This document shows positions 3,149-36,100 of a DNA stretch of 64,000 bases, piece by piece (the stretch's first letter is position 1; each line of letters starts with the position of its first letter). The notes beneath the pieces were generated by a model. It worked only from the letters and a program-made list of their open reading frames with translations, was not told the DNA's origin and did not search any database. Position numbers and translations under genes: made by a program. The DNA is taken from assembly GCA_006503535.1 (NCBI GenBank), contig QYRS01000010.1:744001-808000 (forward strand). The letters run 5' to 3'. Source of the DNA: Arthrinium phaeospermum (taxonomy: Eukaryota > Ascomycota > Sordariomycetes > Amphisphaeriales > Apiosporaceae).

Positions 3149-5186
3149 ATGGCGGCAACATTCAGGCCGGTCAATATCGAAGTGAAACGGGAGGACAGCA
3201 CCATGGCGCCATCCCCGACGACCCCAACGCCGACCAAGGCAACGTTTAGTCAACGTCCCTTGCCGACATCGCCATTTCCCCAGGCCGTCCAGATCCCCGA
3301 GAGCATCGATGAGAAAAAGGTACCGCATCGCGAGAACTCGCAACAGTCCAGGAAATCTCGAGGCGATTCGGAAGATGTTGGCATGGAGGATTCGGACGGA
3401 GAGGGCCACGGCGACGACGGGGCTGGATCCGATGACGAAAGTGTTAACGCCGATGGGACGAAATCGAATAAGAAGAAGAAGTCGCAGAGATTCTACTGCA
3501 CCGACTACCCACCCTGCAACCTTAGCTTCACAAGAAGCGAGCACTTGGCAAGGCATATACGGTAAGCACGCTCGCCGTTGCCATCCCATGCCCTCAATGT
3601 ACTAACTTGCAGCAAGAAAACATACGGGCGAACGCCCATTCCAATGTCACTGCTCGAGGCGGTTTTCGCGTTTGGACAACCTGCGCCAACACGCCCAAAC
3701 GGTTCACGTTAACGAAGACATCCCCATGGATTCTTTAGCCGCCACAGGCACTCGATTCCAACGGCAGATCCGGACAGACCGGGTCCGTCAGCCAGGCAGA
3801 GCTCGTGCCTCTACGGCAGGAAGCATGGCTGGTCCAAACCGGGGCCACGGAAAATCGCTCTCTACCTCGAGCATCGGTTCCATGGGGTCTAATCTAAGCA
3901 GTCGTGAAGATGCTCGGCGACGGCCGCCACCCCTGGTGATGGCCGATCCGCGGTCACGGTTATCACTCGAGTCCTACCACAGTGCCGGTGGTGACAGTCA
4001 ATACTCCTATCGAGCCGTGTCTCCTAGTGATTTCAGCACGCCTACTTCCGCAACCTTCTCGACAGGTCAGAGCAGCCCGAGGTGGTCTGGGATCGCCTCG
4101 CCAACCTCGTCTCATTCTCGATCTCAGAGTATGTACACTGGCTCGCGAACCCCCGGACGGCGCCTCAGTGTTCCGTCGGGCGGCAATCCCTTCCAGTCTC
4201 CTCATGGTGCGAGTATCGGGCGGCCCTTGTTCGGTCACTCGCCGATCAGTGCCACAAACCAAGGTGCCTTCTCTCCCGTGGCCAGCACTTTAGGGTCGCC
4301 AACATCTTCTGTATTTTCGCGACGGGACTCTGTGTCGAACGCTGCCGATGAAGCTTGGCGTCGTCGGACTTGGCACCCCGACTCCAGCAACTTCAATTCC
4401 ACCAACACAAGCAGCCGCCTGAGTCAAGTCATTACGCCGTCTCAGTTCCAAAGTCCTGTCACCGGGCCCGTAACGGTTGCCAACCCTGCGCCGCAGAACT
4501 CCGGAATCCGCTTGCCCGGTATCGAGTCTTTTGATCCCCTGCCACAACGACCGACATCGCCCCTGAGACGCAACCCCTCGCCGATGATGATTGATTCTGA
4601 GTCTTCGCATCCACCGGCGCTCCTCCCGGCTGCAGAGAATTCATCTGAGGGCAGGCGGGGGACTGCTAATTGGGACATGGGGCTCCATCGAGGTCTCACG
4701 CGGCTTGATATCGCCTCTAACACGACGCCGCCGCGCGACGGTGCTGGAACTTGGGCTCAGGAAGTACACCAAGCTGTCGAGGCCGAAGCCGACAGAGTCA
4801 GACTGAACCCACCGACAGTTCGCTTCAACGATAATGTTATCATTGAAAATGGACATCCAGGCCCTAGTGGTGGCAACAGAGCCTTCCACCAACACACCAT
4901 GTCAGCACCATCCTTCACTCATAATAGAGAGGGGAAGCGCCATGGATGGTATAACGGTCCCGTCATCCACAATGAAGGCCCCCCTGAGAAGATTGCCCGA
5001 GTCGAACGGGTCGGGCGTATGGTTCACCCCAATATCAGTCACTTCGCGGGGTTTCCGGCCAGACAGCCCCCGGTGCCTCAGCAGCCAGCCCCGGCCAATA
5101 ACTCCACCGACAAGGACAACATGCTTCGCCTCCAAGCACTTGTAGCAGTTGCCACAAGCGAAACCAATGCCACCGCTGCCTACTAG
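3149..5186 (+). CDS. C2H2 zinc-finger transcription factor (two tandem fingers)
   Basis: Two exons, 3149-3561 and 3617-5186, give 660 aa. Residues 75-112 are acidic then lysine-rich (a likely nuclear signal). Two fingers follow at about 115-168. Finger 1 is C117-x5-C123-x12-H136-x3-H140 and finger 2 is C148-x-C150-x12-H163-x4-H168, joined by a TGERPF linker. The single-residue C-x-C spacing in finger 2 fits the fungal Adr1/Usv1/Rsf2-like nuclear regulators. The remaining 490 residues are Ser/Pro/Gln-rich and probably disordered, suiting an activation or repression region. The 55-nt intron falls exactly in the linker between fingers. Frame requires an AAG acceptor at 3614-3616, because the CAG four bases earlier would shift the frame. 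The target genes cannot be read from sequence. The family call is firm; the exact orthologue is not. Confidence 0.9.
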
Positions 5187-24910: not shown

Positions 24911-26203
24911 ATGGCCTCCTCCATCCATCTCAACCCCGCGGCGCGAGACTATACTTACAACGTGCCCAGCGGCGCAGAAGGGGGCACCGACGAGCACACC
25001 GTCCTCGCCTTCCACCAAACCCTCCCCTCCTACAACGAGACAACCCTGCACACGCTGCCGTCCCTCGCTGCCTCGCTGGGGCTGTCGCACGTGCTGGTCA
25101 AGGACGAGTCGGACCGCTTCGGCCTGCCCGCCTTCAAGATCCTCGGCGCATCCTGGGCCGTGTACCGCGCCGTGCTGTCGGCGGCCCTCGACGCCAACCA
25201 TGACCAGGAGAACCTGACCGTCGCCGAGCTCGGGGCCGCCGCGCGGGACCGCGGCCTCGGCATCGTCACGAGTACGGAGGGTAACTGCGGCCGCGCCGTC
25301 GCGCGCATGGCGAGGTACCTCGGCCTGCCCGCCCGCGTCTTCGTCCCCGCGTACATGAGCGAGGGCACGCGGCAGATGATCCGCGGCGAGGGCGCCGAGG
25401 TCCTCGTCGTGGACGGCAGCTACGAGGATACCATCCCCGTCATCCGCAGGGAGGCCGCCGAGAGGGAGGGGAGCGTGTTGGTGCTTGACGTGGGCCTCGA
25501 GGGGTACGAGGTGGTGCCTAAGGTATGGATGAAAGGCTTTGATGATCACAATGACAGGACGTTGGCTGGGGCCCTATCCTCTCCCAGTATCCGTGGGGAA
25601 CTGTCAATGAGCGCGGGGGCATAGTGAAATTAGATTGCTGATGTCAAGCTGCAGTACTTTGTGCAAGGTTACAGCAGCATGCTCGCCGAATCCGAGAAAC
25701 AGGTTCCGGAGCTCACGGGCGGCAAGCCGGCAACGCACGCCATCGTGCCATGCGGTGCCGGCTCCATAGCCCAGGCGGTGGTGCAGCACTACAAAGGGGC
25801 TCAGCGTCAGAAACAGCACGGGAACGCAGCGGTAATCGCGGTAGAGGCCACCAACGCGGCGTGTCTGAAGGCATCCCTCGAAGCGGGCGAGGCTACCGAC
25901 GTGCCGACCGCCGACACCATCATGAACGGCATGAATTGCGGCACCCTGTCCACGCTGGCCTGGCCGGTGTTACGCGAGGGCGTGGACGCGAGCGTCGTCG
26001 TGACGGATCAGGAATCGCACGCGGCCGTGGAGGAGATGAAGGGCAGCGGGATCCTGGCAGGGCCCTGTGGCGCGGCTACACTTGCCGCGCTGAGACGGGT
26101 GTGTGCAGATCCTCGTGCCCGATCCTCGCTCGCTCTGGGCTCCGAATCGATTGTTGTGCTACATTGCACCGAAGGGCCCAGAGACTACCAGATCCCTTCT
26201 TAA
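24911..26203 (+). CDS. Diaminopropionate ammonia-lyase-like PLP enzyme
   Basis: Exons 24911-25522 and 25655-26203 (132-nt intron, phase 0) give 386 aa. This is a fold-type II PLP enzyme related to tryptophan synthase beta. The likely Schiff-base lysine is K76 in the motif PAFKILGA, preceded by VLVKDESDRFGLP, the diaminopropionate ammonia-lyase signature. A TSTEGNCGRAVA motif replaces the usual T-DGNHGR and binds the cofactor phosphate region. The PCGAGSIAQAVV glycine loop and an EATNAACLKAS segment follow. The family splits 2,3-diaminopropionate (and D/L-serine weakly) to pyruvate and ammonia. At 386 aa it is close to the bacterial length (about 400). The specific substrate in fungi is unproven. 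Other threonine-dehydratase-like activities are possible. Confidence 0.88.
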
Positions 26204-26938
26204 CTCCTCCAGCATTGCATATCATACAGCGAGGCTAGATTCTGGGGTTTTTAGTGCCACTCCCCCTATTTCCGCGCCTTCGTTATCTGATTACTGGAAT
26301 TCGACGACACACGTCAGTCTTGATATTGCATGCGAACTATACTCCATCATTTGCTATAGTTCCGCTCAAACTTGCATTTGCAGTGAAATTGCGTAGATGA
26401 ATGCACGCGTGCCCGGCGATAGGAAGCCCTGCCGAGTCGGGCCAATCGGGAGCCGCGCCAATTGCTGGTGCTACCCTCGCGTGGCCACGGCGGCAGCAAT
26501 GCAGAGAATCGGGCGGCGGCGTGATTTGTTGAAGACGGGGTGATGTGTCAAAAGCATGCAGCTGTCATGCGGGACATCAAAGCCGTTTCGGGTGCCTTGC
26601 CTCATTGTCCTGATATGGCTTGCTGCATCCCGGTCCAATTGGAGACGGGCAATCATGGGAAGTCACACCGGGCCAGCGCATTCGAGCCTCGAATCCAGGC
26701 AATCATACAAAACCTCGATGAGGCCTCGGGCCGGTCGTGGGCCTCCCGCATAATACATAGAGGAATGGCGAAATCTTGGGGTTTATGGGCTCTTGGGCGC
26801 TTGCTGGACGTTGGTTTGGGCTCCCGGGGGACTCGACCTTTCTCTTCAACTTATCTATGTACTTGATAACTGGGGAGAAGCAAAAGATGGTACTCTGAAG
26901 ACATGATCAATCTTTAACAGATATATGATTCTCCAAAG
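26204..26938. promoter_or_regulatory. Promoter region of the collagen-like gene
   Basis: No supported coding frame. A CAG acceptor-like site at about 26918-26920 shortly before the start codon leaves room for a 5' UTR intron or an upstream coding exon. This matters because the encoded N-terminus lacks a clear signal peptide. Confidence 0.4.
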
Positions 26939-28563
26939 ATGGCCATCCTGGTTTATGCAGTTGGAACGACCTCGGCACAGCCCTCTAAGCTAGCTACGCC
27001 AACCCTGGCTATCCGGCAACCTAGTCTAGTTACCCTGGTCATCACCAGACCGACCTTGACCAGCACGACTGTCATCTCCCTCGGGAACGATGGGCCGGAC
27101 CCCACTACAGCAATTCCACTAGCCGAGACATCAACTAGTGCTGAACCGGCTCCGGCAGGGGGATCAGACGGCATATCCACGACGGGCGTCGTTATCTTGG
27201 GCCTAGTGCTGGGTTTATCATGCCTTTCACTCCTTCTGTGTTTTCTCTGCCGCAATAGGTGTTGTCCCGGTCGTAGAAGCAACGAGAAACTGAAAACATA
27301 CTCAGATTATCCATGCCACACATGCCGTCGGGCTCGCGGCCCTCGTGGGCATCGCGGTCCTCCCGGCATCCAGGGACTGCCTGTGAGTTATCCCGTTAAC
27401 TACATCTTTCATTGCTGTACTAGGTAAACTGAACTGCCATAGGGAGTTGGGATGCAGGGGCCTCAGGGGGTACCAGGTGATCGAGGTCCTCAAGGTGATC
27501 CAGGCGTTCCAGGCGTTCCAGGTGATCCAGGGATACCAGGCGACCGAGGTGAGCCAGGGATACCAGGCGCCCAAGGCAACCAAGGCGAGCAAGGTGAGCA
27601 AGGGGAGCAAGGGGACCAGGGACCTCAGGGCCCCCAAGGTGATACCGGGGCGGATGGACCTGTAGGTCGTAAGTCATGCCTCATCACCACATTGACACAT
27701 ATCGTGATTGACGTTACTTATTCCAAATGTCTTGTAGCTCGAGGCGAACCTGGTCCATCGGGTCCTGCCGGTGCCGCTGGTACGTTGACTCCTTTATTGG
27801 AAAATCCCCTGTATCAGCGACGAACGCGGGCAGCTCACTACACGCAGGTCAACCCGGACCGTCGGGACCGCAAGGACGTCCTGGGCCTCCTGGTGCAGAC
27901 GGACAGAAAGGCCAGTCCGGGTAAGTGAATAGCCACCTAGTAAAAAGCTCCAGTGGCCTTCCACAAAACAGGCTAATTTACCCCCAACAGACCCCCAGGA
28001 AAAGACGGCAGAGATGGAAGAGATGGTCGCCCTGGAATCGACGGTCGACCAGGGACGCCAGGGTAAGTCGCATAGCTGCCTCTATATTTGCACCATCACT
28101 AATCAACATGTTTGAAGACGTGACGGCGCACCGGGTTCGCCGGGGATTCAAGGGATACCAGGGATACAAGGGATACCCGGACCGTCTGGGTCGCCTGGAC
28201 CGCCTGGGTCGCCTGGGTCCCCGGGGCCCGAGGGACCTGAAGGGCCAGATGGCCCGCCTGGCCCTCCTGGTCCTCGTGGTCCGCCTGGTGCGAGAGGTCC
28301 TTGTGGTAACGGAGAAAGGGGCTGTCCGGGACCTAGGTATCCAACCCCAACTGCTTTCCCATTGCCGAAGCCAAGGGCGCTTATTCTAACGTGCGAATAG
28401 GGGAGACCGAGGTCCAAGAGGACCCAGAGGTGATCAGGGGCCAAGAGGGGACGAAGGTCCCCGGGGCGACCCCGGTCGAGGGAATGATTGGTGTGGGACG
28501 CGGCCATGCGATGGAGGTTGTGGCACGCGACAATGCAATGGAAATTATGATTCTTGCGGATAA
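26939..28563 (+). CDS. Membrane-anchored collagen-like protein
   Basis: Seven exons (26939-27382, 27443-27668, 27738-27779, 27848-27920, 27991-28062, 28118-28336, 28401-28563) join in frame to 412 aa. Residues 1-80 are Thr/Ser/Pro-rich. Residues about 83-104 form one membrane helix followed by a Cys/Arg-rich segment (RNRCCPGRR). From 133 to 383 there are about 80 Gly-X-Y triplets, with only two small breaks (a GV and a GN). The tail 384-412 has five Cys (390, 395, 399, 404, 411). Pro at X and Y, plus Arg and Asp/Glu pairs, suit a true triple helix. By the positive-inside rule the collagen part would face the cytosol if the N-terminus is outside, which would be odd. The exon 6 acceptor is AAG. 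Function unknown; the collagen-like nature is certain. Confidence 0.9.
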
Positions 28564-28792
28564 CTGGAATTCGGTTTCAATACCGCCGGTTGAGATATAC
28601 GATATGACCAGGCTTATGATGGACTTTTATCGTTGTAAGATCAAGATGTGTATTTTATCCAGATTGTATTCGCTCGTATACTGGGATACAGGGAACATAC
28701 GGGAAGCATTGGGAATAAGCGCATACGACGAACAATTCAAGTATATGATCTAAACTTGGCCAGTGCTTTCCCCGTCATTCTTGCAGGACAGT

Positions 28793-29977
28793 CTATCTAC
28801 CATCTTGTAGTTCCACATCCACTGGATGAACCTCAAACACCGGCGTGACCTGCCCCGTCACGACATCCATAGTATTCTTCCGCTCCAGGCGATGGAAATG
28901 GGACAGTTTCCCCCATGTCTCAGGGTCGCCGATCCCTAGCTGCTTCAAAATCTCCACGACCGCCACATAGAGTATCTCGATGCTCCCATCCTCGATCTTC
29001 ACCGCGAGGCCTAACGCCTGGCCTTCTGAGTCGCCACCACCGCAGATACGTGCCGTCTGTTGCGAAGCACGGATACCGACCCCGTAGCACCCGTCGGCGC
29101 CCAACTTGCCGATCAAGCCACCGCCGTACGCCTGCATGAACAGGGTGCAGAAGCGACCCTCACCACCAACCATCTCGGGGTAGTCCGACATCGCGTGGAA
29201 GATACGGGCCATTCTGCGAGTCCTCTCCTCTGCATTATTGGCCTTGGTGCCGTTGCTACCACTGACTATCGGAGTGGCGTTCCTTTCATCGTTTATCGTC
29301 GAATCGTCGGCCGCCTTTGCAAAGCCAGCAAACGTGCGAGCGAGGTCCTTCAACGGCATCGCCGGCGCCGGAAGATTACACCCATCGACACCCCACGCGA
29401 TACGGTCACCGTCGCCGTCACCGTCACTCGACCCGAGCCCAGCCAAGTCCTCCGTGACCCGCCTAACCCGGACCTGCATAGGATGATCCGGCCTCTCGTA
29501 GCCCTCGAACGGCACCCCGAGCACCGCCGCGCCCGCCAACATGCCAACATGCTTGCCAGAGCAGTTATTACAAATACCCGTAGGCACGAACCCGTCCCGG
29601 ACCCAGTCGCGATTCACCCCGTCCGAGACGGCCGGGTGCCCGCCGCAGCGCAGGTCCGCCTCCCGCAGCCCCGGGACGCGGGCGAGCATGCGGCGCGCGC
29701 GGGCGACGTGGCGGGCCTCGCTGCTGTGCGAGGCGCAGAGCAGCGCCACGTCGGCGCCGTCGAACGCGAACCGCTCGGCGGCGCCCGTCTCGAGGATCGC
29801 CAGCGCCTGGGCGGGCTTGGCGGTCGAGCGGGCGAGCGTGAGGCGGGCGGGGTTGCCGACCGAGTGGAGGAGCCGGCCGGAGGCGTCGACGATGGCGGCG
29901 TGGACGGCGTGGCGGTTCTCGACGATGCCGCCGCGGTCGGTTACGATGTAGTCTTCGGTGCGGGTTGAGACGGTCAT
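28793..29977 (-). CDS. L-asparaginase, Rhizobium etli (class 3) type
   Basis: Single exon, 394 aa from the ATG at 29977; the open frame further upstream begins only at a TTG. The sequence matches the asparaginase II family typified by R. etli ReAV, unrelated in sequence to E. coli AnsA/B. Its active-site pieces are visible: S51 and K54 in RSTAK, S83 in CASHS, and the zinc-site residues C139 and K142 in CNNCSGKH with C200 in VDGCNLPAP. It hydrolyses asparagine to aspartate and ammonia, and no signal peptide is seen, so it is probably cytosolic. A hydrophilic insertion around 183-192 (Asp/Gly repeat) and another near 225-250 are not part of the core. The gene is convergent with the collagen-like gene (229 bp apart). 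Confidence 0.92.
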   Translation of the reverse strand: MTVSTRTEDYIVTDRGGIVENRHAVHAAIVDASGRLLHSVGNPARLTLARSTAKPAQALAILETGAAERFAFDGADVALLCASHSSEARHVARARRMLARVPGLREADLRCGGHPAVSDGVNRDWVRDGFVPTGICNNCSGKHVGMLAGAAVLGVPFEGYERPDHPMQVRVRRVTEDLAGLGSSDGDGDGDRIAWGVDGCNLPAPAMPLKDLARTFAGFAKAADDSTINDERNATPIVSGSNGTKANNAEERTRRMARIFHAMSDYPEMVGGEGRFCTLFMQAYGGGLIGKLGADGCYGVGIRASQQTARICGGGDSEGQALGLAVKIEDGSIEILYVAVVEILKQLGIGDPETWGKLSHFHRLERKNTMDVVTGQVTPVFEVHPVDVELQDGR

Positions 29978-30469: not shown

Positions 30470-33155
30470 TTACAACGTCAGCTTCCACAGTTTCCTCCCC
30501 TTGCTATCACGCCCAGCATCCGAGACCTCCCCCTTCGCCGCGTCTCCCACCGTCACAGCGCGCTCCTCTCCGACCGGGAGCACCACCGTGATACCGTTCT
30601 TGACCCACAGCGGCTCGAACGCGCCCTGCTTCTTCATGCTCACGCCCACCCGGATCTCCTCGGGCGAGGAGGTGCTGTACTCGATCTCAAACGTGCAGAG
30701 CTCGCTCTTCTCCACGCGGCTGGTACCGTCGTCCTCGAACCACTGGTTGGTGAAGGACTGGGTAGTCCCGTCACTGCTGGTTACAGAGGCGGCAGCGTCA
30801 CTCGGGAGGTTCGCATCATGAACAACCGGCGGCGGGAAGATCTCGACTCCGCGCCAGTCGTCCTTGGCAATGTTGGGGAACTCCGGGTCGTCTGCGGCGA
30901 GACAAGTAGTCGGCATCGACTTGCCCACCGGGATGATTGAGCCGATGCGAGCGAGTACGGGGATGGACGTATACCATGTGGAGTCGATGTCGTGCCACTT
31001 CCCGGACTCGAAGTGCTGGTAGGGCGCGGCAAGGTTCAGGAATCCCGGGTCTTCGTTGTCCTTACGAGGCAAGTAGACCTTGGCGAAGTTGACCCCGGGC
31101 TCATAGACACCCGCCACAAGCATGGCGTCTCCGAACCAGTACTGAGAGTCACCCTTGAGAATTTCCTTAGACCATACATTTGGGTCGGACTCGTAGCCCC
31201 AGCCAGTCCATCGTTGCGGAGGAGTTGCGTCCTGGTGAGACTTCAACATGTGCGAGTAAGTGTAGGGCACGAGCTCATAGCGCCGTTTTATAGCAGCTCG
31301 AATAATCGGAGCAACAGAAGGGTATTGCCAGGGCTCGATGACTTCACCAATCAGGTTGTCGGAGGGATTGGTCTTGTAGCAGTTGATGGTGAAGCGAGGA
31401 GAGTGGATGCCCAGTTGGATCCAACGCACAAGATGCTCCGGGGTTGGCTGGGGTCCTTCGAACCCTCCAATGTCATGACCGTAGCACTGGTATCAAGTTA
31501 GCGTCTGTAGCACGGTATAACGACCCCTGGTCACTTTGACTTACTTGCAAAAGAGAGAATCCGGCATTGAGTGCCAAGGCATTTGCTCCCTTCATGCCTT
31601 CCCAACTGGTGACGTTGTCGCCACTCCAAGAGCTAGCACAGTACTTCATTGTACCGGCGGTTGCGCTTCGTGTCAGTACGAAGGGGCGCACACCAGGTTC
31701 GGCTTCGAGAGTGGCATCATGTGAGCTTTTACCCATCAGCTCCGTGTGGAGGGCCCGACCCCAAAGGCCAATGTCGTGACGGGTCTCTCCTTCCGGTACA
31801 TCGACGGTCTCCAGAGCGCACTGCCAATCATCGCCGGGGATGTTGTACTCGTTGTTGTCGTTCCACATAGCGTCAATGCCCACCTCCTTGAGGGCCTTGA
31901 CCCCGTTATACCACCAGTCGTAGCCCGCCTTGGATGTAAAGTCGATGTGACTGCCCTCTCCGCTCTCGCCACCGCCGGCACTCCAGAGCCTAGCAACCGC
32001 TGTCTTTTTCGTCACAGGGTCCTTGAAAAAGCCACCAGCCTTCGATAATTCGGCATAGCCTGGATGATTGGCCAGGACATAGGGTTTGACGTTGGCCAAC
32101 AGCCGTACCCCATGCTCATGACACTCCTTGGTGAAAGCTCTGGGGTCGGGAAATCTGTGGCGGTTCCAGGTGAAGACGTTCCTCGTTTTGGGCTCTGTTT
32201 CTGCCACCGTGTAGCCCGAACTCATCTGGAACGCAGAGCACGGCATGTCGTACTTTTCGCAGTTCTTGATGAACCCCATAAGAGCATCACAAGCCCGAGG
32301 GGAGTCCTCCATGCTGTACTTCATACCACCTCCTACATAGCCCATCATGTATCTCGGCATCAGCAGTGGAAACCCAGCCAGTTCCGCATACGAGCGGACA
32401 ACTTCGGCCACGGTGCTTCCGACAATAAGATACTCCTCAAGTCCTCCATGCGCTTGCCTGTAAACCTTGAAGTGGCCCCACATGCCATCGATCTCGGAGC
32501 CAACAGACCAGGTCCCTCTGGCATGAGACGTCGAGAACATGCCAACACACCCAGAGGGAGTAACATTGATCAGGAGCGGGATGTGCTTATACAGTGGATC
32601 TGTACGATAAGCATCGTACCCGAAAGTGTCTGACGCCGAGACAATGAAGCCGCGCCCGCTCAAATCCATGGGGGCGGCCTTCTCGCCGAGCCCGACATGC
32701 AGTGTATCTTTCTTGTACACCGAGTAGTGCGCAATCCCTGTGGCGTCCAGTCCATATGAACGGTAGTGGAGGTCTTTATGGACGGGCTCTTCAGTGCCAT
32801 CCAAGAAGAGTGAAATGACTGGTGAGTCGGACCAGTCCACTACCGCCTTAGTCTTGCCACATTTGATTTCTCGCTTGCAGTGGTTTAGGTCAGTGGTGAC
32901 CTCGGGAGCAGAGCCACCAAACTCCGGAGCCACACGTTTGACACTTGGGAAAGGGGGGACAGGATGCTGTGGGGTCGTGAAGGTGGTGCGGAAGACATTA
33001 GGACGGATTGCTTCGAATTGGAAAGTGCATGGATCCGACGTGCTCTTGTCGCTGGATCGAAGCGAGATGGCGGGGGTTGAATTTGATCCTGACGCATTAT
33101 CCGCTGTCTCATTGAGCTCGTAGCTATGAGCGACACGTTCATACTGATGCAGCAT
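30470..33155 (-). CDS. GH31 family alpha-glycosidase (alpha-glucosidase/alpha-xylosidase type)
   Basis: Exons 33155-31545 and 31486-30470 (58-nt intron, phase 0) give 875 aa. An N-terminal beta-sandwich (about 1-260) is followed by the GH31 barrel. The nucleophile is D433 in the MWNDNNEYN motif, and the acid/base is D513 in SWSGDN. YGHDIGGFEG and a WIQLGIHSPRF block are also present. The C-terminal beta-domains end in a KLTL-like tail. GH31 retaining enzymes remove alpha-linked glucose or xylose. No signal peptide is visible, suggesting an intracellular enzyme rather than a secreted one. The usual nucleophile context is W-x-D-M-N-E; here the Met is Asn. Exact substrate (alpha-glucoside, alpha-xyloside or sulfoquinovoside) cannot be fixed from sequence alone. 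Confidence 0.93.
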
Positions 33156-36100
33156 GATGCCTGGTTCGCGGGCGAGACCGGAAAGAAAAACAGATTAACT
33201 CGGCCCAAGGAAAAGGTACAGCCTGTTATGGGGCTGTTTAAGGAGCAGGCACGGAATATTTGGATCAGATTAAGGGGAATGTCAATGAATTTGTAGGTGA
33301 ACTGCTTTGGAGTATACCACGGAAAAGATCGTGACGAGGAAGATCGGGGGTTTCAGCTACAGGGGAAGCGAAGGCACCGGGAGTTCTTGTTAGCCGCGTT
33401 AGACCCGAGATTCAAGCATGACCGGCCTAGCTATTGGGTAATATCTTGACGAGAAGTGTAGTACGAGGGGTGAGGGGCTCGCTCATCGGAGCGCTCACTA
33501 CGCAAGCTGGCGGCCCAAGGATTGCAATTGCGGGGACACCGGCGCGTTGACGGAGCCATCCCGCGGGATGGCGGCGGATGGTGACCAAAGGGAGGTCTCA
33601 CGATGCCCAAATGGAAGCATGCTGTGACAAACTCGCATGATATGCTGGAGAAAGGTCTCCGCCGAATAATTGAACAGGGTCACGAAGCCAGAACTTGTGG
33701 GTAAGAGGAGACATGAAGTCCAAGAATTCCAAGAAGTCGTGAGCGGTCGACTGATAACAGCTCTTGCCATGCCTTGCAGCTTGGTCGGTGGCTGGACAGA
33801 GCCGCTCAATAGCTGTCACCACATTGGACCAGGGTCTACGCCGGTAGAGTTAGGAGCCATGCCAATGCCAATACCATGCATGACTCAATCAATGCAGCAG
33901 CATGTGCTCACTGAAAGAGAGGACCTCGCACCGACAGCAGGTGACTGTCCAGTTTCGGGCTTATTGTGCACCGAGATTATGTTTCTCGTCTGCCGATTGC
34001 GGTAAGTTGCCAGTGGCTTGGCCTAGGTCTCCAACTCTGGCCCCTAGCACCCCCCGACGTCGTGGCAGCACCATTGCGGTTCCACCTGGACAGCAGACAC
34101 GTTTGTGGGCGCAGACTGGGGTGAGGACTTGACGACCAAGTTGAAAAGGGCGTGCCCAAAATGTAGGTCGCGATAAAGCCGGACCGTGGGGCCCAGATGC
34201 CAGATGGTTTTCTGGAAGAACCTCGAGTGATCTGGCAGCATTCGCGAGGTCCAGACCTTTAGGCAGTAGGATCGTGTGGACATCATCTCCATTCTGTCTG
34301 GGGAAAATGGAGAACCAAGTGTCAAAAGTCCACAGCGCAGCGAGATTAGCTGTGCGGGGTTAGTGCAATGCGGGGAAATAGTCTAGAACAGGGATCCCGA
34401 AAGTTGGCTTGGAACTTCGGATGGCTTCACCTGACCTAGCCTGTTGCCTGCCCGTCCTTGCGGAATAAAACACCCACGACGGGCCAAGAGCCTAACGTAG
34501 CAAGTTGACTGATGTCGGACGAATGCCGCTCTGGGGTAGCAACCCATCGGTCCCCGTCCGATGGATCCATGCCACCACCATCTAATCTGAGCTGGTTCCC
34601 TAGGTTAGCGAGCAGCTAGGGGCCAGGGGGGGACCAAGGGGGCTCAGGGGGCTCGAGGCAACCGGCAGAAACGTCGGCATCTTGTACCCCCAACTTTGGG
34701 GGTTCGCAGTCGTCCGATTGAACGAACAGACGAAAATCCGCCGACTTGGTCCTTGGTGCTGTCGTTCAACGTCACTCCCTTCTCGGTGAATTTTCGGTAC
34801 ATATCAGGTCGCCATCGTAGCCATGATGCTTGCCTTGTCAATATCGACGTGTTTTATATACGCAACGGGCGGCCCGGGCATGGCATTGGCAGACCGGTCA
34901 TTTTGCTACACCCGGGGCACGTTTTGCCATGTGACTGTCAAAACAATCAATAACTAACTGTCTAGGCTACCGCCTCCCCGTACCTGACGTTGCTTCATTC
35001 ATCCAAACCCCTGAGTCTTGCACACTAGATTTTGCTCAACAACACGTCATGGAGTGTACTACTAACCCATAGCTCGGAAATAACTACAACAGAGCACGCG
35101 CTACAGCATGGATGTCGGAACGAGAAACACCCACGCCAAGTTGGGCGGCTCACTGGAATAACTTCTTGTGTCCGGCTTGGTCTGTTTACCTCTGCGCATG
35201 GGTGCTGTCCGTATGGACAATAAGCCCGGCCAAGAAGCTTGGAGGCGCTAAAGGACCGGGACGGCAGCCACGTCACGGGAGATTGTAGCTTGGTTCTTAG
35301 AGCAACGGTGTAGCCACGCATTTTCACTGTAATGCGATAAAAAGCAAGTACGGGTATATATTTCCATTGAAGCTCACCATATAATTTATCGTGTAAAACA
35401 CCTCATCTGATGGCGAATATAGAGTGTGTCGGACGTATGAAGAATGTAATTGAAATGCAATAACCAAAAAGAACCTGGCAGGATGTGCGGTACTACATTA
35501 ATATCATTGATGGATCCTTCCCGTGCGATGATGGTATCAATGACTCTTTCCTTCCAACCCTAACAACAAAACTAGCGCTGACGCTCATCAGCTGCCATCT
35601 ACCATCCCCCATGCCCCCTCTCCCCCTATCAATGAACGTGCCGTCTCTGGTGAACTGCGCATTGCCCCCACACCCTCCCCCCTAGATCGATCAGGGTATA
35701 GTGGCAAGGAAGACATAGCCCATGGCAAGCACCATTCCCCGGACCCCAGATTCCCCAAGCCGTTTCATGGGGTATGCACGCTCATGACCCCATGCGCTAC
35801 TCCATTTCCCCAAGCCTCGGGTCAACCCCCAGAAGGAAAGAGACTAGCGAGAAGCGAGCCATCATCATGCAAGTAGGTAGCTCTTCGTTGTGATAACCCC
35901 GGCTGGAGGTCTTGGGCTCATCCCCATCCTGTTGCTACCTGCTGTAGACAGACAGCCAGTAGGACCGTTATCCGAATGGTGTCGCACCTTCGTTGTTGAG
36001 CGCCGTGTTTAAAAGCGACCTCGCGTCCTGCTCTTTCGGCATTCACCTCCTTCCTTCATCTCAGATCCATCGTCGTCAGCCTTTACTAGCTAGACTGTAT

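Follow-up and report, generated by a model that had tools for sequence, protein, structure and literature searches.

A candidate gene for a membrane-tethered collagen-like protein in the ascomycete Arthrinium phaeospermum

Introduction

Does a filamentous fungus encode a collagen that is tethered to a membrane and, if so, on which side of the membrane does the collagen lie? These questions are raised by a locus in a 64,000-nucleotide stretch of the genome of Arthrinium phaeospermum (contig QYRS01000010.1; hereafter the window), for which the original prediction, made from the letters alone, proposed that the fungus makes a single-pass membrane protein with a collagen-like region and a Cys-rich tail. 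Animal transmembrane collagens, or MACITs (collagens XIII, XXIII and XXV and COL-99), are described as type II proteins that furin can release and whose conserved C-terminus includes two Cys (PMC4678570). According to the same 2015 paper, none had been identified in non-metazoans (PMC4678570). Here we ask whether the gene structure, the collagen repeat and the relatives of this locus support the proposed protein, and what they suggest about its orientation.

Results

Gene structure and protein layout

Joining seven exons on the forward strand (26939-28563), as the original prediction had done, gives one open frame of 412 codons followed by a stop (Table 1). All six introns are of the GT-AG type and 55-70 nt long, with the donors GTGAGT, GTAAGT, GTACGT, GTAAGT, GTAAGT and GTATCC in that order; by a simple score with a maximum of 6, five of these lie at 5.3-6 and the sixth (GTATCC, at 28337) is weak, at 3.8. 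Exon 1 by itself holds both the membrane helix and the first five triplets of the repeat, and the link between membrane and collagen is thus independent of splicing.

Table 1. Features of the predicted gene and its product (positions are those of the window).
Feature	Residues	Positions	Strand	Remarks
Ser/Thr/Pro-rich head	1-83	26939-27187	+	Ser/Thr 25/83, Pro 9/83; 95% / 82% identity to Apiospora proteins
Membrane helix	84-104	27188-27250	+	19-residue hydropathy maximum 2.78 at residue 84; borders by eye
Basic Cys-containing stretch	105-133	27251-27337	+	net +7 over 30 residues from 105
Collagen-like region	134-386	27338-28482 (introns inside span)	+	83 triplets
Five-Cys tail	387-412	28483-28560	+	Cys 390, 395, 399, 404, 411
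Exon 1		26939-27382	+	head, membrane helix, basic Cys stretch, first five Gly-X-Y triplets; residues 1-95 match three Apiospora proteins
Exon 2		27443-27668	+	alternative in-frame start 27458 abolishes first break
Exon 3		27738-27779	+	open frame
Exon 4		27848-27920	+	junction with exon 5 coincides in A. marii protein models
Exon 5		27991-28062	+	both junctions coincide with A. marii protein models
Exon 6		28118-28336	+	second G1G break between Cys 348 and 355
Exon 7		28401-28563	+	includes stop codon; exon 6 junction coincides with A. rasikravindrae model

It had also been suggested that a signal peptide might be encoded by an exon further upstream. No convincing exon of this kind was found: strict donors allowed one join and relaxed donors allowed 34, and of these 34 the 25 listed were inspected. 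The join that looked most signal-like by eye, MAKSWGLWALGRLLD followed by MAILVYAV, was not adopted; its donor, GTTGGT, is weak, and an Asp lies within its core. The neighbours of the gene are a pyridoxal-phosphate enzyme (PALP) upstream (24911-26200, forward strand) and, downstream on the reverse strand, L-asparaginase II (28796-29974) and a glycoside hydrolase family 31 enzyme (30473-33194); none of the three has an evident tie to it.

The 412-aa product consists of a Ser/Thr/Pro-rich head of net charge -2, one membrane helix, a basic Cys-containing stretch, the collagen region and a Cys-rich tail. Hydropathy, composition and charge bear out the head, the single helix and the basic stretch of the original prediction, and the five tail Cys that it counted are all there, out of a total of 14 in the protein. 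A CC pair sits four residues past the helix, and the basic stretch ends in RRAR (residues 130-133), a motif that may serve as a furin/Kex2-type processing site. No coiled coil is apparent by eye after the helix. A Pfam scan of the product at E<=1 returned Collagen as its sole match, the Flo11 domain being absent. The tail had no match at E<=1 in the protein set (67 candidates), nor at E<=10 among PDB sequences; four matches to phage records, three of them listed with E of 5 to 10, were taken as chance.

The collagen repeat

The Gly-X-Y repeat is longer than chance would produce. It comprises 83 full triplets, where about 80 had been predicted, and matches the PF01391 profile, with Gly at every third residue over a long stretch and a score of 136 bits against a curated cut-off of 27.2 (E=3.7e-40). 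At E<=0.001 it matches 35 distinct PDB sequences, 32 of which are named collagen, and Pro occupies 29 of the 83 X positions and 31 of the 83 Y positions. In all six frames of the window outside 26901-28600, the longest run of G-x-x is five triplets, while single exons inside the gene hold runs of 25 and 21; among 1000 codon shuffles of the collagen stretch itself, the longest run was ten triplets. All four bases are used nearly evenly at the third position of the 83 Gly codons (26 T, 21 G, 19 A and 17 C; 1.98 bits). A Gly at every third codon with a free third base is as expected under selection for glycine in the collagen frame.

As modelled, the repeat has the two tiny breaks that had been described, both of the form Gly-X-Gly (G1G): GLP-GV-GMQ at residue 149 and GPC-GN-GER at residue 349. 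The first falls on the junction of exons 1 and 2 and disappears if an in-frame CAG acceptor 15 nt downstream is used (ending at 27457 instead of 27442), which gives GLP-GPQ and a protein of 407 aa with 82 triplets and one break. The first break may therefore be an artefact of the choice of acceptor. The second lies inside exon 6, with a further Cys on either side (348 and 355), and the spacing of Gly there fits two of the related proteins described below (P0001 and P0003).

Other collagen-like and prolyl-hydroxylase genes

The assembled genome (48.4 Mb in 19 contigs) contains at least 23 PF01391 profile matches at no fewer than 12 places, the present gene included. When the 11 other places were inspected by eye, a mixed collagen composition was seen in L011 and L012 only, and these two look, from their sequences, like true collagen genes; the others are a Pro-Lys repeat (L013), a place lacking any run of six triplets (L018), and repeats built from few amino acids. 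The original prediction overstates the rarity of collagens in fungi, given these two or more additional Gly-X-Y genes of mixed composition and the fungal PF01391 proteins already in print (PMC8621652, PMC3490861, PMC11105155). No convincing second copy of the head, the helix region or the tail was found in the genome, other matches having E of 0.025 or worse.

The L011 gene (L011:3748-4320, on G000:C3; Pfam Collagen, 37.6 bits) would encode a short protein in which a short head and a membrane helix are followed by a Lys-rich stretch, then by 20 triplets and, after CGCC, by an end rich in Ser and Pro; its triplets feature a repeated Asn-Gly-Thr and its Gly codons are mostly GGC (12 of 20). The L012 gene (L012:3641-4090 and about 4198-4967, on G000:C4) has 32 collagen-like triplets with no helix seen ahead of them. 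It shortly precedes a stretch of high AT content (up to 93%) whose ends are inverted (CCAACGCACCCC/GGGGTGCGTTGG) and which is likely a mutated transposon. Past this lie two open frames, neither of them matched by Pfam; the second contains two hydrophobic stretches. L010, L014 and L015 carry simple Gly-x-x repeats within open frames, namely (GSN)n in a frame of 862 codons, (GDP)n in one of 138 codons, and GxP repeats with an open frame on either strand.

The original prediction had also proposed looking for prolyl 4-hydroxylase genes. PF13640 matches fall at eight places, and the one that was taken into a comparison with solved structures, L032 (G000:C3:2311000-2314000, minus strand), has an N-terminal hydrophobic anchor by eye. 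Its Pfam score is barely above the cut-off (29.1 against 27 bits), and among solved structures it matches 'Prolyl 4-hydroxylase subunit alpha-2' (E=1.3e-8) and 'prolyl-4 hydroxylase' (2jig; 1.6e-7). The genome thus holds one anchored gene resembling prolyl 4-hydroxylase, although its product need not act on the collagen-like protein. A search for lysyl oxidase gave no match in the genome, but its controls were equally silent, and the result is uninformative.

Which side of the membrane

The net charge is -2 before the helix and +5 after it, which predicts that the collagen lies inside. The original prediction had invoked this charge rule, and its arithmetic is correct; the argument is nevertheless not decisive as to the side, because the protein might be processed at the basic stretch, as described for animal transmembrane collagens (PMC4678570). 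Collagen prolyl hydroxylases act in the ER, and every collagen known to us lies outside. We consider it probable that the rod of the present protein is likewise outside (type II), a placement favoured by the tail Cys, which suit an oxidising place, by the anchored hydroxylase-like gene, by RRAR, by the failure to find a signal peptide for the head, and by the location of known collagens.

A rod in the cytosol is unlikely, though this is the alternative that survives best. It would put an O-glycosylated head outside in the wall and the rod and Cys tail in the cytosol, with the Cys near the membrane lipid-modified; an equally doubtful extension of it is that the protein has the layout of a wall-stress sensor with a rigid inner tail. 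The charge difference across the strongly hydrophobic helix points this way, as do the paired Cys just beyond it and the abundance of Ser, Thr and Pro in the head, since such heads in fungal membrane proteins are usually outside. By eye, the helix and collagen gene at L011, which is unrelated, likewise has basic residues between helix and repeat. Against this stand the prolyl hydroxylases, as ER enzymes, and the want of a convincing signal-peptide exon, which would leave the 83-residue head to cross the membrane unaided; moreover, we know of no cytosolic collagen. Somewhat less likely again is the full version, in which a triple-helical rod and Cys tail in the cytosol, with the glycosylated head outside, would form the rigid inner arm of a wall sensor. 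A cytosolic rod would, as far as we know, be the first cytosolic collagen. That the rod is neither outside nor cytosolic seems improbable.

Relatives in Apiospora and the reading frame

Relatives were sought with three separate queries, namely residues 60-145 (481 candidates), residues 1-95 (240 candidates) and the tail (67 candidates). The collagen repeat was not used as a query against the large protein set because any Gly-X-Y protein would match it. Residues 60-145 and residues 1-95 each returned the same three proteins, two from Apiospora marii (P0001 and P0002) and one from Apiospora rasikravindrae (P0003), with identities over residues 1-95 of 95%, 95% and 82%. The search for fungal homologues that had been proposed therefore succeeded within Apiospora, but with the head and helix-region queries it found none beyond these three among the 240 and 481 candidates, respectively.

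The protein models of all three relatives depart from the collagen frame within the helix, by eye after its first 6-9 residues; conservation can thus be judged for these 6-9 helix residues, the remainder of the helix and the bulk of the basic stretch falling outside what the models show. If the database models were correct, most of the helix would be spliced out, the repeat would be read in another frame, and there would be no collagen. Three of three proteins from two species are modelled in this way. In the window, however, a stop at 27663-27665, shortly before exon 2 ends, interrupts that frame, and both A. marii models do without this last part of the exon. It is in the collagen frame that Gly recurs at each third codon with a free third base. 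Nor is any Pfam family listed for the three relatives, and none was found at E<=1 in the two that were scanned (P0001 and P0003).

The residues of a relative restrict the codons that can underlie them, and we could thus ask whether Gly is possible at every third place in the collagen frame. As a control of the method, the true residue of the window lay within the computed set at 290 of 290 places. Gly could stand in every triplet over unbroken runs of up to 50 triplets in P0001, 41 in P0002 and 61 in P0003, against at most 12, 11 and 10, respectively, in 1000 shuffles of each. By this measure the Gly period seen here could also hold in the relatives. Of the 112 differing aligned residues of P0003, 53 need a single change at the third base of the collagen codon, 22 need one at the second and 1 needs one at the first, while 2 are undecided and 34 multi-base differences were excluded, all of these counts being rough since the alignment is rich in gaps within the repeat. 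Single-base changes in P0001 (18 at the third base, 11 at the second, 1 undecided) and P0002 (20, 11 and 1) lean the same way, each weakly when taken alone. With Gly kept possible in the relatives over 41-61 triplets, we regard the database frame as very unlikely to be the right one.

The alignments further indicate that introns 4 and 5 are common to the A. marii models, in which intron 6 is read through, and that intron 6 is common to the A. rasikravindrae model. The original prediction suggested that the tail Cys could lock trimers; in A. rasikravindrae the tail allows a Cys at two of the corresponding places and, one residue out of step, at a third, but not at the CHTC pair, nor is a Cys possible at either place flanking the second break. 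That the locus is a pseudogene or low-complexity DNA without a product, as the variation of repeat length between species might suggest, is just as improbable in view of 412 open codons across seven exons with six junctions in register and a head that is 95% and 82% identical in other species.

Discussion

Our conclusion is that the original prediction, a protein with one membrane pass, a collagen-like repeat and a Cys-rich tail, agrees with the exons, the Pfam match, the Gly codons and the relatives. Taken together, and with the doubt as to a gene product included, we give a slightly better than even chance that this is a real, lineage-restricted, membrane-tethered collagen with its rod probably outside. 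From the features of the chain we infer a trimer, a membrane side, a processing step and a role. The membrane helix would hold three chains side by side, and these would intertwine as a single triple-helical rod with the Cys-rich tail as its cap. As the collagen triple helix rises by 0.286 nm per residue, the rod would be about 70 nm long (250 residues x 0.286 nm). Lying outside, it could span the cell wall or run along it, serving as a rigid spacer or an adhesive hair, and it might be released through cleavage at the basic RRAR stretch.

Such a layout resembles that of the MACITs as they are described (PMC4678570), with an N-terminal non-collagen part, one helix, a possibly cleavable basic stretch, an interrupted repeat and a short Cys-containing C-terminus. 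The likeness is one of overall build, with no defining feature found in full and none tested and failed. For type II orientation, the charge across the helix argues against and the absence of a signal-peptide exon argues for. One or two G1G breaks interrupt the repeat after the helix, where the MACIT definition places the repeat in the ectodomain; RRAR likewise follows the helix, and its cleavage by furin is possible. The present protein differs from MACITs in a charge polarity that argues for the opposite orientation, in its 83-aa Ser/Thr/Pro-rich head, in having no coiled coil by eye after the helix, and in having so few breaks.

Among fungal proteins, Mcl1 carries a signal peptide and is secreted. 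Mcl1 of Metarhizium anisopliae is described as a collagen-like protein of the surface coat (PMC7348879, PMC11105155). By description, then, it is alike in being a collagen-like protein of a fungus; unlike it, the present protein has a helix ahead of the repeat and no signal peptide that we could find. Flo11-type adhesins with a PF01391 region, proposed to form a straight rod, are described from two Candida species (PMC8621652) and share a collagen stretch in a fungal protein. The present protein differs from them in lacking the Flo11 domain. The Aspergillus collagen-like (acl) genes are, again by description, similar in that they too are Gly-X-Y genes of ascomycetes.

No fungal transmembrane collagen appeared among the literature matches listed (titles and the starts of abstracts, with most subscription journals outside the search), and within the same scope no paper combined Apiospora, genome and collagen. 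If the proposed reading is true, this would be a membrane-anchored collagen outside animals, and the layout of transmembrane collagens would apparently have arisen independently. The models of three public relatives leave the collagen frame and have no family assignment, which suggests that gene prediction can hide fungal collagens; others may be concealed in the same manner by out-of-frame models and so be missed by family scans.
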